Made by a program: the position numbers and the translations under genes
The notes under the pieces: generated by a model
Database searches by the model: none
The model's input: the letters and a program-made list of their open reading frames with translations, nothing else
What the model was told of the DNA's origin: nothing
In this document: piece by piece, positions 53,370-57,490 of the stretch
Layout of the letters: each line of letters begins with the position of its first letter
Position numbering within the stretch: position 1 is the first letter of the stretch
Source: Terriglobales bacterium
GTDB lineage: Bacteria > Acidobacteriota > Terriglobia > Terriglobales > Acidobacteriaceae
Direction: 5' to 3'
DNA length: 64,000 nucleotides
Assembly: GCA_025934735.1 (NCBI GenBank)
Contig: JAICWP010000012.1
Span: 1-64,000 of the forward strand

Positions 53370-53541
53370 AACGCAGAGGTCGCGGAGAGAAAAACATGGA
53401 GGAAGAAGGCCAAGCGCAAGGTCCCTCGACTTCGCTAGGGATGACACGCTGCAGAGTGACGTTGGTGAAAAGGTCCCGGAGTGCCGGCTAGCCAATCTTT
53501 GCGATCTCGGTTTGTCTCTGTCTCTGCGGCCTCTGCGTTTA
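53370..53541. repeat. Inverted-repeat pair between der and trmFO
   Basis: The left end AACGCAGAGGTCGCGGAGAG and the right end CTCTGCGGCCTCTGCGTTTA are inverted copies. The right end overlaps the trmFO stop codon. About 115 bases between are unrelated, with no gene. Confidence 0.75.
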
Positions 53542-54852
53542 GGTTTTTAGCCAGGCATCCAGTTCGGCGAGTGCGCACCCACACTGGAGGCGGTGCCGCT
53601 CAGCCCGGTCGCGCACCTTACGCTCGAGCGGCGGCAACAGGTCAAACGTGATGTTCGCGGGCTGAAAGTTCTTTGCGGCGGCGTGGGTGACGTAATGTAC
53701 GAGCGAGCCCAGCGCCGTCGCTCGCGGCGCCGCCACCGGCTCCAAACCCGCGGCCAGCGCGGCCGCGTGCATCCCCGCCATCAGGCCCGCGGCGATGGAC
53801 TCCACGTATCCCTCCACCCCGCAAATCTGCCCGGCAAAGAAAATGTTCGGCTGCGACTTGAGTTGCAGGCACTCGTTCAAAAGTGTGGGCCCATTGATGT
53901 AGGTATTGCGGTGGATCTGCCCGTAGCGCAGGAAACGAGCATTCTCCAGCCCGGGAATCAGCCGCAGCACTCGCGCCTGCTCGCCGAACTTCAAATGGTT
54001 CTGGAAACCGACCAGATTGTAAGAATCGGCGCGCAGATTCTCCTGCCGCAATTGCACCACCGCATAGGGCTGCTTACCGGTGCGCGGGTCGCGCAGACCC
54101 ACCGGCTTCATCGGCCCAAAGCGCAGGGTGTCGCGCCCGCGCCGCGCAATTTCCTCAATGGGCAGGCAGGCTTCGAAATAATTCAGCCGCTCCCAGTCGC
54201 GGGCCTCCACCGCTTCCGCCGCCACTAACGCGCCGTAGAACCGGCCGTATTCCTCTTCTGACATGGGGCAGTTGATGTAGTCGGCTGTTCCTTTATCATA
54301 ACGAGCTGCCTTGTACACCCGGCTCATGTCAATGGAGTCGGCTTCCACAATGGGGCTGATGGAATCGTAGAAGAAGAGCTGGGTGCCCCCGATCAGGCGC
54401 GTAATCTCATGACTGAGCGCGTCAGACGTGAGCGGGCCGGTGGCGATGATGGTGATCCCCTCATCTTCGATGTGCGTGACTTCCTCCCGGCGCACGCGGA
54501 TCAGCGGCTGGCGCGAGATGGCCTCCGTCACGGCTGCGGAAAAGGCGGTGCGGTCCACCGCCAGCGCATGGCCGGCGGGCACGGCGCACTGCCGGGCCAG
54601 TTCCATGAGCAGCGAACCTGCCCGGCGCATCTCTTCTTTCAGCAGCCAGGGCGCGGTGTTCTCGGTATCGGACTTGAGAGAGTTGGAGCACACCAGTTCG
54701 GCGAAGTCCGCGGTCTGGTGCGTCGGAGTGGAGCGCGCCGGGCGCATCTCATAGAGCTCAACCGGCACGCCGCGACGCGCCAGCTGCCAGGCCGCTTCCG
54801 AGCCTGCGAGTCCTGCGCCGATGATGAGAACGGGGAACACTCTGGTAAGCAC
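53539..54852 (-). CDS. trmFO: Folate-dependent tRNA m5U54 methyltransferase TrmFO
   Basis: A 437-residue FAD enzyme that makes ribothymidine at tRNA position 54 using methylene-THF. Motifs: IIGAGLAGSEAAWQLARRG (FAD), YEMRPARSTPTHQTADFAEL, CSNSLKSD and the C-terminal GGVEGYVESIAAGLMAG-like stretch (VEGYVESIAAGLMAG). It is present in organisms that use TrmFO instead of TrmA. Its stop codon lies in a dispersed repeat end. Confidence 0.96.
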   Translation of the reverse strand: MLTRVFPVLIIGAGLAGSEAAWQLARRGVPVELYEMRPARSTPTHQTADFAELVCSNSLKSDTENTAPWLLKEEMRRAGSLLMELARQCAVPAGHALAVDRTAFSAAVTEAISRQPLIRVRREEVTHIEDEGITIIATGPLTSDALSHEITRLIGGTQLFFYDSISPIVEADSIDMSRVYKAARYDKGTADYINCPMSEEEYGRFYGALVAAEAVEARDWERLNYFEACLPIEEIARRGRDTLRFGPMKPVGLRDPRTGKQPYAVVQLRQENLRADSYNLVGFQNHLKFGEQARVLRLIPGLENARFLRYGQIHRNTYINGPTLLNECLQLKSQPNIFFAGQICGVEGYVESIAAGLMAGMHAAALAAGLEPVAAPRATALGSLVHYVTHAAAKNFQPANITFDLLPPLERKVRDRAERHRLQCGCALAELDAWLKT

Positions 54853-54995
54853 CAGGTTAAAGCTCTTGGCTCTTACAAAAGCTAGCCGACGGAAGGCCGA
54901 CTAGCTCAGCGAGCCAACGTTAACAGCCGAAGCCAACCATCCATCAGCCAACGACTGTTATTATACGGACTGCTTTTTACGAGGAGCCCGCCCGC

Positions 54996-55523
54996 ATGGC
55001 CCGAATTGCTCTCATCGATCCCCAGGCCGCCGGCCCGGAAGTAAAAGAAATCTACGACCAGACACTCAAGGGCAAGCCCGGCAACGTGCAAAAGGCGATC
55101 GCCCATCGTCCTCAGGTTTTAAAAGCTTTTCTGCCTTTTTATGCCAGCGTGGGCAAGTCCCTGGACCGCCGCCTCTACGAGATGGTGTACATCCGCGTCT
55201 CCATGATCAACCGATGCCATTATTGAATGCAGCATCACCTCGCTTCGTCGAAGCGAGCCGGTCTGACGGAAGAGGACTGGAAGGCGCTGAAGAATCCCGG
55301 CGCCGCCGAGTTCGGCGGCCAGACTAAAGCCGCTCTGGTCTTTGCCGAGAAGCTGACGCGCACGCCGTGGGAGATCAAAGACGAAGACATCGCCGCCCTG
55401 AAGCAGTATTTTTCCGATGAGCAGATCGTGGACCTTGACCTGCTCGTCGGCCTGGCTAACCTGACCAACCGCTTTACCGACCCGCTGGGATTGGAGTTGG
55501 AGTTTGCGGCAGAAAAAATCTGA
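54996..55523 (+). CDS. AhpD/carboxymuconolactone-decarboxylase-like protein, probable selenoprotein (Sec77)
   Basis: The gene is read through an in-frame TGA (55224-55226) to give 175 residues. The family motif around the TGA is INRCHY-U-MQHH, i.e. Cys74-His-Tyr-Sec77, where other AhpD/CMD members have CxxC. Downstream residues are strongly family-like (EDWKALKNPGAAEFGGQTKA, VDLDLLVGLANLTNRFTDPL). A hairpin with a G at the loop start follows the TGA by 12 bases. The convergent neighbour is selB, the Sec-specific elongation factor. GAGGAG stands before the ATG. Such proteins reduce peroxides or disulfides in the cytoplasm. If it is not Sec, it would be a truncated 76-residue pseudogene. Confidence 0.8.
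55239..55257 (+). promoter_or_regulatory. SECIS-like hairpin for Sec insertion
   Basis: A perfect 8-bp stem (CTCGCTTC / GAAGCGAG) closed by a GTC loop begins 12 bases after the in-frame TGA. The first loop base is G, as in bacterial SECIS consensus. The TGA-to-loop distance is 20 bases, within the usual range. Confidence 0.75.
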
Positions 55524-55597: not shown

Positions 55598-57490
55598 TTA
55601 AAGAATTTCGCGCTGATCGCCCACTCGGCGGGTGATGCGTTCCCGGTCCAGATACTCCAGCAGAGGAATGGCGTACTTCCGGCTCACGCCGGTCAAGTCC
55701 TTGAATTCCGCCACGCCGATTTTGGCCGCCTGCGTTTTATGGGAACTGACGCGCTGGCGCAAATCCTCCAGCGCGCTGCGGTGAAACACCAAATCGTCGG
55801 AAATCTTCACCAGCACTTTGTCGCGCAGCAGCAGGGTGACAATCTTCTGGGCCCGCGCTTTGTCCACCCTCAGCCCGGCGAGCACGTCTTTCAGCGCGGG
55901 AACCTTGAGCCCGGCCGAGGCAAAGGCCTGCTCAATGATGCGCTTGGATTCCGCTTCTTCATCCTTGAGCACCATCGTGCGGCCGCCGGCACGCACCTGC
56001 TCTCCGGCAACCTCGATCTTCTTTTCCCGAGCCAGCGCATCGGTTACGGCGCTAAACACTTCTGGGCGCAGCCTCAGCTTTTCCCGCAATTCTTCCTTGC
56101 TGATGCCCGCGACCAGCGGGTTGGCGCGATGGAACTCCTCGACGGCTGCCAAGGTCTCGCGTTGCGCCAGGGCAAAGGCCTCCTGCGCCACCAGCACGTC
56201 ACCGAAGCGCAGCAGTTTGCCTTTCAGAGATGCTGCTTCCGCTTCCACACTCGACCGCCGCCAGCCGGTTTCGGCCACCGCATCGCCCAGTGCCAATCCT
56301 GATTGCCCGCAGCGGGCTACACGAGCCGTCAGAATTTCCTGCGGCTTTCCCTGCGACAGCAAAGGCAGCAGCGCTTCCGCTTTCACCTTCGCGCCTTTGC
56401 CCGCTAACGGCGGGGCATCCAGCACCGTTCCGCCCCCAATGGTGACCACCGGCGAAAACTGCCGCAGGATGAAGCGGTCGCCGGGCAACAGCAGCATGGG
56501 CTCCGCCGTGCGCAGTTGGGCGAAGCCCGACTGACCCGGAGCTAGTTGTTTTGCACCGTACAAGACCACTTCGGCGATGGTTTCCGCGGTATAGGCGTGG
56601 AGGTGGACGCGGGCGCGATCTTTCAGCGGGCGCGCCGAAGGCAGCAGCGCCAGGGAAACATCCAGGCGATTGGTGGTGCGAATTGTAGCCGGAGGCGCCA
56701 GCATCATGCCCCGTGCCAGATCGTCCTTGGTTACACCCGCGAGGTTGAGCGCGGTGCGTTGTCCTGCCACGGCCTGCTCCGCTGCCTTCCCATGGACCTG
56801 CACTCCACGCACCCGTACCCGCCGCCGCCCGGGGAAAATTTCCAGCTCTTCTTCTTTGTGAATGGTGCCGGCAAGCAGCGTACCCGTCACTACCGTGCCA
56901 AAGCCCTTCATCACGAACACGCGGTCAACGGGCAGGCGTGCCAGCGCGCTCGCATCCCGTGGCGGCACTGCGGCGGCCGCCTGCGCCAGCGCCCACTTCA
57001 GCTCTTCGACGCCCGCGCCGGTTTTAGAACTGATGGCCAGGATGGGGGCACCCTCCAGAAACGAGCCGCGCAGAAAGTCCTCCACCTCCAGGCGCACCAC
57101 TTCCAGCGTGTCGCGGTCTACGAGATCGGATTTCGTCAGCACCGTTATGCCGCGGCTGATGCCCAGCAGACGGCAAATATCAAAGTGCTCGCGGGTCTGC
57201 GGCTTGATGGACTCGTCGGCGGCGATCACCAGCAGCACCAGGTCAATGCCGCCCACGCCCGCCAGCATGTTGCGCACGAAGCGCTCGTGGCCAGGCACAT
57301 CCACGAAGCCCAGGCGCAGAGCTTCGCCGCCGGAGGCAGGCAGTTCGAGGTGGGCAAAGCCGATATCAATGGTGATGCCGCGGCGCTTTTCTTCTTCCAG
57401 GCGGTCGGGATCCGTGCCAGTCAATGCCTTGACCAGCGCCGACTTGCCGTGATCAATGTGTCCGGCGGTGCCTATGATGACCGACTTCAC
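55598..57490 (-). CDS. selB: Selenocysteine-specific elongation factor SelB
   Basis: A 630-residue translation factor that delivers Sec-tRNA(Sec) to UGA codons with a SECIS element. The GTPase domain has [29 protein letters not shown] and [12 protein letters not shown]; domains 2 and 3 follow ([16 protein letters not shown]). The C-terminal ~250 residues form winged-helix repeats ([38 protein letters not shown]) that bind the SECIS. The start is a GTG at 57490. Its convergent neighbour is a gene with an in-frame TGA, which supports a functional Sec pathway; selA, selD and tRNA-Sec are not in the window. Confidence 0.96.

Follow-up and report, generated by a model that had tools for sequence, protein, structure and literature searches.

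A predicted acidobacterial AhpD-like CxxU selenoprotein gene, with a SECIS-type hairpin that accompanies the TGA codon among its orthologues

The AhpD-like gene described here, from a Terriglobales bacterium of the Acidobacteriaceae, contains an in-frame TGA, and the question raised by the locus is whether this codon ends the protein or is read as selenocysteine (Sec). The gene lies in the window, which is the whole stretch of 64,000 nucleotides of contig JAICWP010000012.1 that was analysed. A mechanical list of the open reading frames cuts it into ORFs of 76 aa and 98 aa. The first-pass annotation, made from the letters of the DNA, had proposed instead a CxxU selenoprotein of the AhpD/CMD family, on the basis of the position of the TGA, a hairpin beyond it and the presence of selB next door. 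The proposal is supported overall, with the comparative argument for a SECIS element much strengthened and the argument from selB weakened. Judged from sequence comparison, the gene almost certainly encodes an AhpD-like redox protein in which UGA at codon 77 is decoded as Sec. It is well supported that the gene is a further, acidobacterial member of the already known AhpD-like CxxU selenoproteins. Computation gives the gene itself, the equivalence of its TGA to a Cys codon, the hairpin and its coupling to the TGA, and the genes for Sec decoding. The features are collected in Table 1.

Table 1. Features of the locus and further AhpD-like genes with an in-frame TGA in the same genome
Feature	Position	Strand	Basis
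trmFO, divergent neighbour, not part of the proposed mechanism	53539..54852	-	NF003739, 661 bits
AGGAG, likely ribosome-binding site, 9 nt before the ATG	54982..54986	+	read from the sequence
AhpD-like/CMD selenoprotein gene (predicted), 175 aa, Cys74-His-Tyr-Sec77	54996..55523	+	PF02627, orthologue alignment, AlphaFold2/Foldseek
Sec-encoding TGA (predicted), codon 77, equivalent to the second Cys of CxxC	55224..55226	+	Cys in 2ijc and in 59 of 76 orthologues (among the matches listed)
Bacterial SECIS-type hairpin, 8 bp, GUC triloop at 55247-55249	55239..55257	+	fold, codon conservation, covariation
selB, Sec-specific elongation factor, convergent with the CMD gene	55598..57490	-	TIGR00475, 352 bits (cut-off 242)
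AhpD-like gene L044, C-D-Y-U	C46:88268-88768		PF02627 over cut-off; triloop element at 20 nt
AhpD-like gene L045, C-K-Y-U	C19:97721-98128		PF02627 over cut-off; GUU loop at 17 nt
AhpD-like gene L047, C-S-Y-U	C12:35786-36274		31 bits; triloop element at 20 nt

The gene starts at the ATG at 54996, and the 98 codons after codon 77 keep the frame open as far as the terminal TGA at 55521-55523. Around the internal TGA the protein reads INRCHY-U-MQHHLASSKRA. The 98 codons include residues that are invariant in the family, which bears out the earlier statement that a conserved frame continues unbroken past the TGA. The read-through protein belongs to the CMD/AhpD family by its match to PF02627 (E 3.1e-15; 56.4 bits, cut-off 23), and it is also over the cut-off of the AhpD core model TIGR00778 (36 bits, cut-off 27.8). 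With the peroxidase-related enzyme model TIGR01926 it scores 71.5 bits, under the cut-off of 81.8, and the enzyme subfamily is therefore left broad. Each of the 39 orthologues scanned matches TIGR01926 at E < 0.001 (best 1.2e-23), these being E-values and not cut-off scores. All 39 members scanned also match NF053654, the YciW-related (seleno)protein, at E < 0.001, yet the window protein reaches 62.9 bits against a cut-off of 310 and is not that equivalog.

The nearest solved structure by sequence is PA0269 of Pseudomonas aeruginosa (PDB 2ijc; E 1.1e-14), with 2pfx and 3c1l as further relatives in the PDB. U77 aligns with Cys51 of PA0269, and Cys is found at this position in 59 of the 76 orthologues among the matches listed; the TGA thus falls, as had been claimed, on the second Cys of the CxxC motif. 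The proton relay of PA0269 consists of Glu36, Cys48, Tyr50, Cys51 and His55 (PMC3141380, excerpt). Through the 2ijc alignment these positions correspond to E62, C74, Y76, U77 and H81 of the window protein, and all five are invariant across the 42 rows of alignment A2, in which Sec was entered as Cys and rows go down to 28% identity. An AlphaFold2 model of the protein (mean pLDDT 95.6, pTM 0.90) has helices at 58-72 and 75-85, with C74-x-x-U77 between them and at the start of the latter. The top Foldseek matches are all AhpD-like peroxidase-related proteins (3c1l, 2prr, 2pfx, 6k40 and 2ijc; E 1e-7 to 1e-6), and the match to Mycobacterium tuberculosis AhpD is poor (E 0.39 or worse). The window protein therefore resembles PA0269 (PDB 2ijc, 2o4d) in sequence, fold and the five relay positions. 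It differs from both PA0269 and M. tuberculosis AhpD in having a predicted Sec where these have Cys, and from the latter also in the location of the motif, which in M. tuberculosis AhpD is in another region of the chain (PMC3141380, excerpt).

Orthologues, taken as proteins of 56% identity or more, are present in 40 of 200 genomes sampled from the same family (the genome of the window included), and codon 77 is TGA in 16 of these and Cys in 24. A contig search with the single window protein as query found no relative; the same search with alignment A1, the 39-row orthologue alignment, returned 86 relatives, the best 80 of which represent 79 loci. At least 68 orthologue records are found in the named collection, assigned, among the matches listed, to Acidobacteria, Acidobacteriales, Acidobacteriaceae, Terriglobia, Terriglobales, Sulfotelmatobacter or Angelobacter. 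This collection includes 32 rows of the family sample and does not include the window gene; the named set plus the window numbers 69. Once duplicates are removed there are 76 distinct orthologues, including the window gene and 7 that come from the family sample only. Among the matches listed, these have TGA (17), TGC (54) or TGT (5) in the column and no other codon. The TGA column, for which an alignment with CMD/AhpD relatives had been proposed at first pass, is therefore a Cys column that is also TGA in 16 other orthologues.

The hairpin is present in 16 of the 17 TGA orthologues among the matches listed. The exception, L134, is a decayed copy with another in-frame stop and a partial match, from which the hairpin is absent. 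A further decayed TGA orthologue, recorded as both L034 and L106, has an internal TAA with the hairpin intact, which indicates that TGA-form genes do decay. A first tree of the orthologues, with four Sec/Cys changes, was discarded for its unusable outgroup and the meeting of long branches. A second tree, to which nine closer homologues were added, places 75 orthologues and requires at least three Sec/Cys changes between them; 37 of its 81 inner branches are open, and the starred branches alone force one change.

The hairpin has the letters CTCGCTTC-GTC-GAAGCGAG in DNA, with the loop GUC in RNA. The earlier description of it, as an 8 bp hairpin with a G-first loop starting 12 nt past the TGA, was accurate, and 20 nt separate the TGA from the loop. 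All three stretches that were folded contain the hairpin in their MFE fold. There are 1673 TGA triplets on the two strands of the window, and only the one at codon 77 has at least 7 contiguous pairs and a G-first triloop at this spacing; the terminal TGA of the CMD gene has 2 contiguous pairs. When synonymous codons were resampled 20000 times, 28 trials gave 8 contiguous pairs. The z-scores of single-sequence folds are weak, at -0.40 to -1.38, and do not set the hairpin apart from shuffles. The evidence for the hairpin is therefore comparative rather than energetic.

In the excerpt of PMC13188914, the bacterial SECIS model has a loop of 3-9 nt, a stem of 4-16 bp, a G in loop positions 1-2, a spacing of 16-37 nt and an energy of at most -7.5 kcal/mol. 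The window hairpin lies within every one of these constraints, with a 3-nt loop of G then U, an 8-bp stem, a 20-nt spacing and -11.0 kcal/mol for 27 nt. The form seen here and in distant TGA homologues is narrower than this general model, as excerpted, with its uninterrupted stem, its G[G/U]C triloop and, in 18 of 20 of those homologues, a 20-nt spacing. An Rfam scan of the window at gathering thresholds gave a tRNA as the sole match.

A functional SECIS predicts coupling between the Sec codon and the hairpin at the level of codons, which an accidental stop codon does not. Coupling was assessed in 39 orthologues (15 TGA and 24 Cys), with L034 left out. Over codons 82-88, synonymous codon identity is 0.86 in the TGA genes (n=15) against 0.38 in the Cys genes (n=24), while in the rest of the gene it is 0.45 and 0.48, respectively. 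Among the windows of 7 codons, codons 82-88 have the top rank in the TGA set; in the Cys set their rank is 152nd of 169. All 15 TGA genes form 7-8 of the 8 pairs, and all 24 Cys genes form 6 or fewer. Among the matches listed for the named set plus the window (n=69), 7-8 pairs are formed in 11 out of 12 TGA genes and more than 6 pairs in 0 out of 57 Cys genes. Energy by itself does not tell the two forms apart, some Cys orthologues being equally stable through other folds; L028, a Cys orthologue, has 6 contiguous pairs at the hairpin site (-13.4 kcal/mol) and a CTC loop.

The codon immediately before the Sec TGA, codon 76 (55221-55223), is TAT in all 15 TGA orthologues; elsewhere in these genes Tyr is encoded by TAT in 27 cases and by TAC in 60. 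The Cys orthologues have 9 TAT and 15 TAC at codon 76, and the 20 distant TGA homologues have 14 TAT and 6 TAC. This preference for TAT is possibly an upstream context effect or a product of shared descent.

The distant set contains 33 homologues of 28-40% identity, taken from a longer list with many more TGA-bearing matches; 20 have TGA and 13 have Cys, and 11 further distant named loci are all Cys. Only stems whose loop has a G at base 1 or 2 were scored in this set. In all 20 TGA homologues a G-first triloop on a stem of 6-8 bp follows the TGA at a distance of 17-22 nt, and the loop spacing is 20 nt in 18 of them, the others being L045 (17 nt) and L155 (22 nt). A stem of at least 5 pairs is found in 6 of the 13 distant Cys homologues under this lax criterion, and at the fixed spacing none of the 13 has more than 2 contiguous pairs. 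The fixed-spacing TGA sequences number 34 (16 orthologues and 18 distant homologues); pairs 1-6 are formed in all 34, pair 7 in 32 and pair 8 in 17. Alignment A4 consists of these 34 sequences and L047, in 34 distinct rows. It has both-sided changes in 7 of the 8 pairs, a number reached by 6 of 500 shuffles, and 61 cells changed on both sides. It scores 0.578 for covariation, where shuffles average 0.251 and 0 of 500 are as high, the relatedness of the sequences being left in the shuffles in both comparisons. Slid versions of A4 score 0.089-0.166. The measure of further pair types showed no excess over shuffles in A4 (459 of 500 as high).

The genome of the window, with an estimated completeness of 99.83%, has the full set of selA, selB, selD and tRNA-Sec. 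The convergent selB reported at first pass is confirmed by its model score (Table 1), and SelB winged-helix Pfam domains are present. The other three genes, which had been proposed as objects of a search, are indeed found elsewhere in the genome and over their cut-offs: selA on contig C48 (554 bits), selD on contig C5 (366 bits) and tRNA-Sec on contig C8 (70.6 bits, gathering 47). In the family sample, selA is found in 16 of 16 genomes with a TGA orthologue and in 22 of 24 with a Cys orthologue, those without being G055 and G040. This means that the Cys form is usually not due to loss of Sec decoding. Together, selA is found in 38 of 40 genomes that have an orthologue and in 79 of the 160 that lack one. 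In some Cys-form genomes, among them G048 and G009, one in-frame TGA occurs in a homologue elsewhere, counted at any position in the gene.

The selD gene of the window genome (L010:1531-1572, contig C5) has an in-frame TGA near its start, at codon 11 of the matched stretch, then a GGC triloop at 20 nt, as seen by eye from the fold. Three other AhpD-like genes of this genome (L044, L045 and L047) also have an in-frame TGA and a SECIS-like hairpin. L047 is weaker and lies outside the 5 PF02627 matches of the genome. Two SECIS-model hits in the genome (L177 and L178, E over 2) are not at a frame-continuing TGA and were taken as chance. The SECIS model missed both selD and the C19 paralogue, and it is therefore not a complete detector.

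The presence of selB beside the gene had been used as an argument for Sec. The neighbour is real, but it is not specific to the Sec form. The gene order trmFO-CMD-selB is common among relatives, and in the named set selB is found in the downstream flank (up to 4 kb) of 51 out of 57 Cys and 9 out of 12 TGA orthologues, among the matches listed. Since selB flanks the Cys orthologues as often, the adjacency is a common gene order and no sign of Sec, and it was rejected as evidence. For the TGA orthologues L069, L072 and L103, 4 kb of downstream sequence contains no match to selB. In genome G055, which has no selA match, the Cys-form CMD gene at L027 is followed by a purL match with selB absent in between, as though the locus had lost selB.

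A TGA within a gene could also come about through pseudogene formation or sequencing error, in which case a TGC has turned into TGA and the frame beyond it is a remnant. Most of the orthologues do have TGC or TGT, and decayed TGA copies exist among the relatives (L134 and L034/L106). Decay looks like L134, however, with its extra stop and lost hairpin, whereas the window gene has an intact frame of 98 codons with family-invariant residues, a TGA that is common to 16 other orthologues and a hairpin that is kept through changes on both sides of its pairs, as in L019/L020. Decay or error, already contradicted by the way TGA and hairpin go together among relatives, is very improbable as an origin of this codon. 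That the UGA is read as another amino acid, either Trp or by near-cognate read-through, with the hairpin incidental or a pause element, is exceedingly improbable. Nothing specific points to it, although hairpins could conceivably promote read-through in general. The gene's own terminal TGA has no such hairpin, the codon 77 column holds solely TGA or Cys codons in the 76 orthologues among the matches listed, and in the family sample all 16 genomes with the TGA form have selA, both selA-less genomes that have an orthologue carrying the Cys form.

A functional meaning of the selB neighbourhood is compatible with Sec decoding. The CMD protein would then take part in selenium handling or in the control of selB, with Sec77 reporting the supply of Sec. 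The recurrence of the gene order and the higher frequency of selA in genomes with an orthologue are in keeping with such a role. The CMD gene and selB are convergent, however, and so are not one transcription unit, selB adjoins the Cys forms as often, and it is not matched downstream of three of the TGA orthologues. The pattern is explained by shared descent of a conserved gene block, and a functional role for the neighbourhood is unlikely.

With UGA 77 decoded as Sec, we infer that in vivo SelB carrying Sec-tRNA would bind the hairpin, with its loop 20 nt downstream, and deliver Sec at this codon. SelA, SelD and tRNA-Sec would be supplied from their loci elsewhere in the genome. In the putative catalytic cycle, Glu62, Tyr76 and His81 would occupy the proton-relay positions of AhpD. 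The U77 selenolate would most likely attack a peroxide or an oxidised thiol partner as substrate. C74 would resolve the intermediate via a selenenylsulfide, which a cellular dithiol would then reduce.

AhpD-like CxxU selenoproteins have been in print since 2005. According to excerpts of the surveys, the Sargasso Sea set has 27 AhpD-like and 4 CMD-domain CxxU selenoprotein sequences (PMC1088965), and the GOS set has 299 AhpD-like 1 and 70 AhpD-like 2 selenoproteins (PMC2398784). The statement in the first-pass annotation that AhpD-like proteins with U occur in metagenomic surveys is thus borne out. Such proteins are tabulated under COG2128/YciW (PMC9312934, excerpt) and TIGR01926 (PMC13188914, excerpt), and 'carboxymuconolactone decarboxylase' occurs once in PMC1242214. 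For the phylum, excerpts give a count of 4 selenoproteins from 3 families in Acidobacteria (PMC1794560) and one Acidobacteriota genome with 3 known selenoproteins, unspecified there (PMC12013277). The selenoprotein literature on Acidobacteriota, AhpD and CMD, for the most part other than subscription papers, contained no title on this clade or gene order. The window protein shares with the known AhpD-like CxxU selenoproteins, as excerpted, the Sec at the second CxxC position and the downstream SECIS-type hairpin, and it is over the PF02627 cut-off like the CMD-like selenoproteins (PF02627, CxxU). It differs from the TIGR01926 set in being under the cut-off of that model. Relative to the surveyed proteins, as far as the excerpts describe them, the features here are the acidobacterial clade, the trmFO/selB setting and the triloop at a nearly fixed 20 nt.

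It is conceivable, though less likely than not, that the Acidobacteriota share one narrow form of SECIS across genes, in which a bulge-free stem of 7-8 bp carries a G[G/U]C triloop that lies 20 nt past the UGA. This form recurs in the CMD clade, in 18 of the 20 distant TGA CMD homologues of 28-40% identity from throughout the phylum (the exceptions being L045 and L155) and in selD of the window genome. If this were true, it would mean a lineage-specific, geometry-locked SelB, and a covariance model could find the selenoproteins of the lineage. The clade is a natural experiment in which one gene, in largely one neighbourhood, has either Sec or Cys, and both the RNA element and its choice of codons track the Sec codon. 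SECIS models for the phylum could be trained on this clade, which could also be used to compare Sec and Cys in one AhpD-like enzyme.
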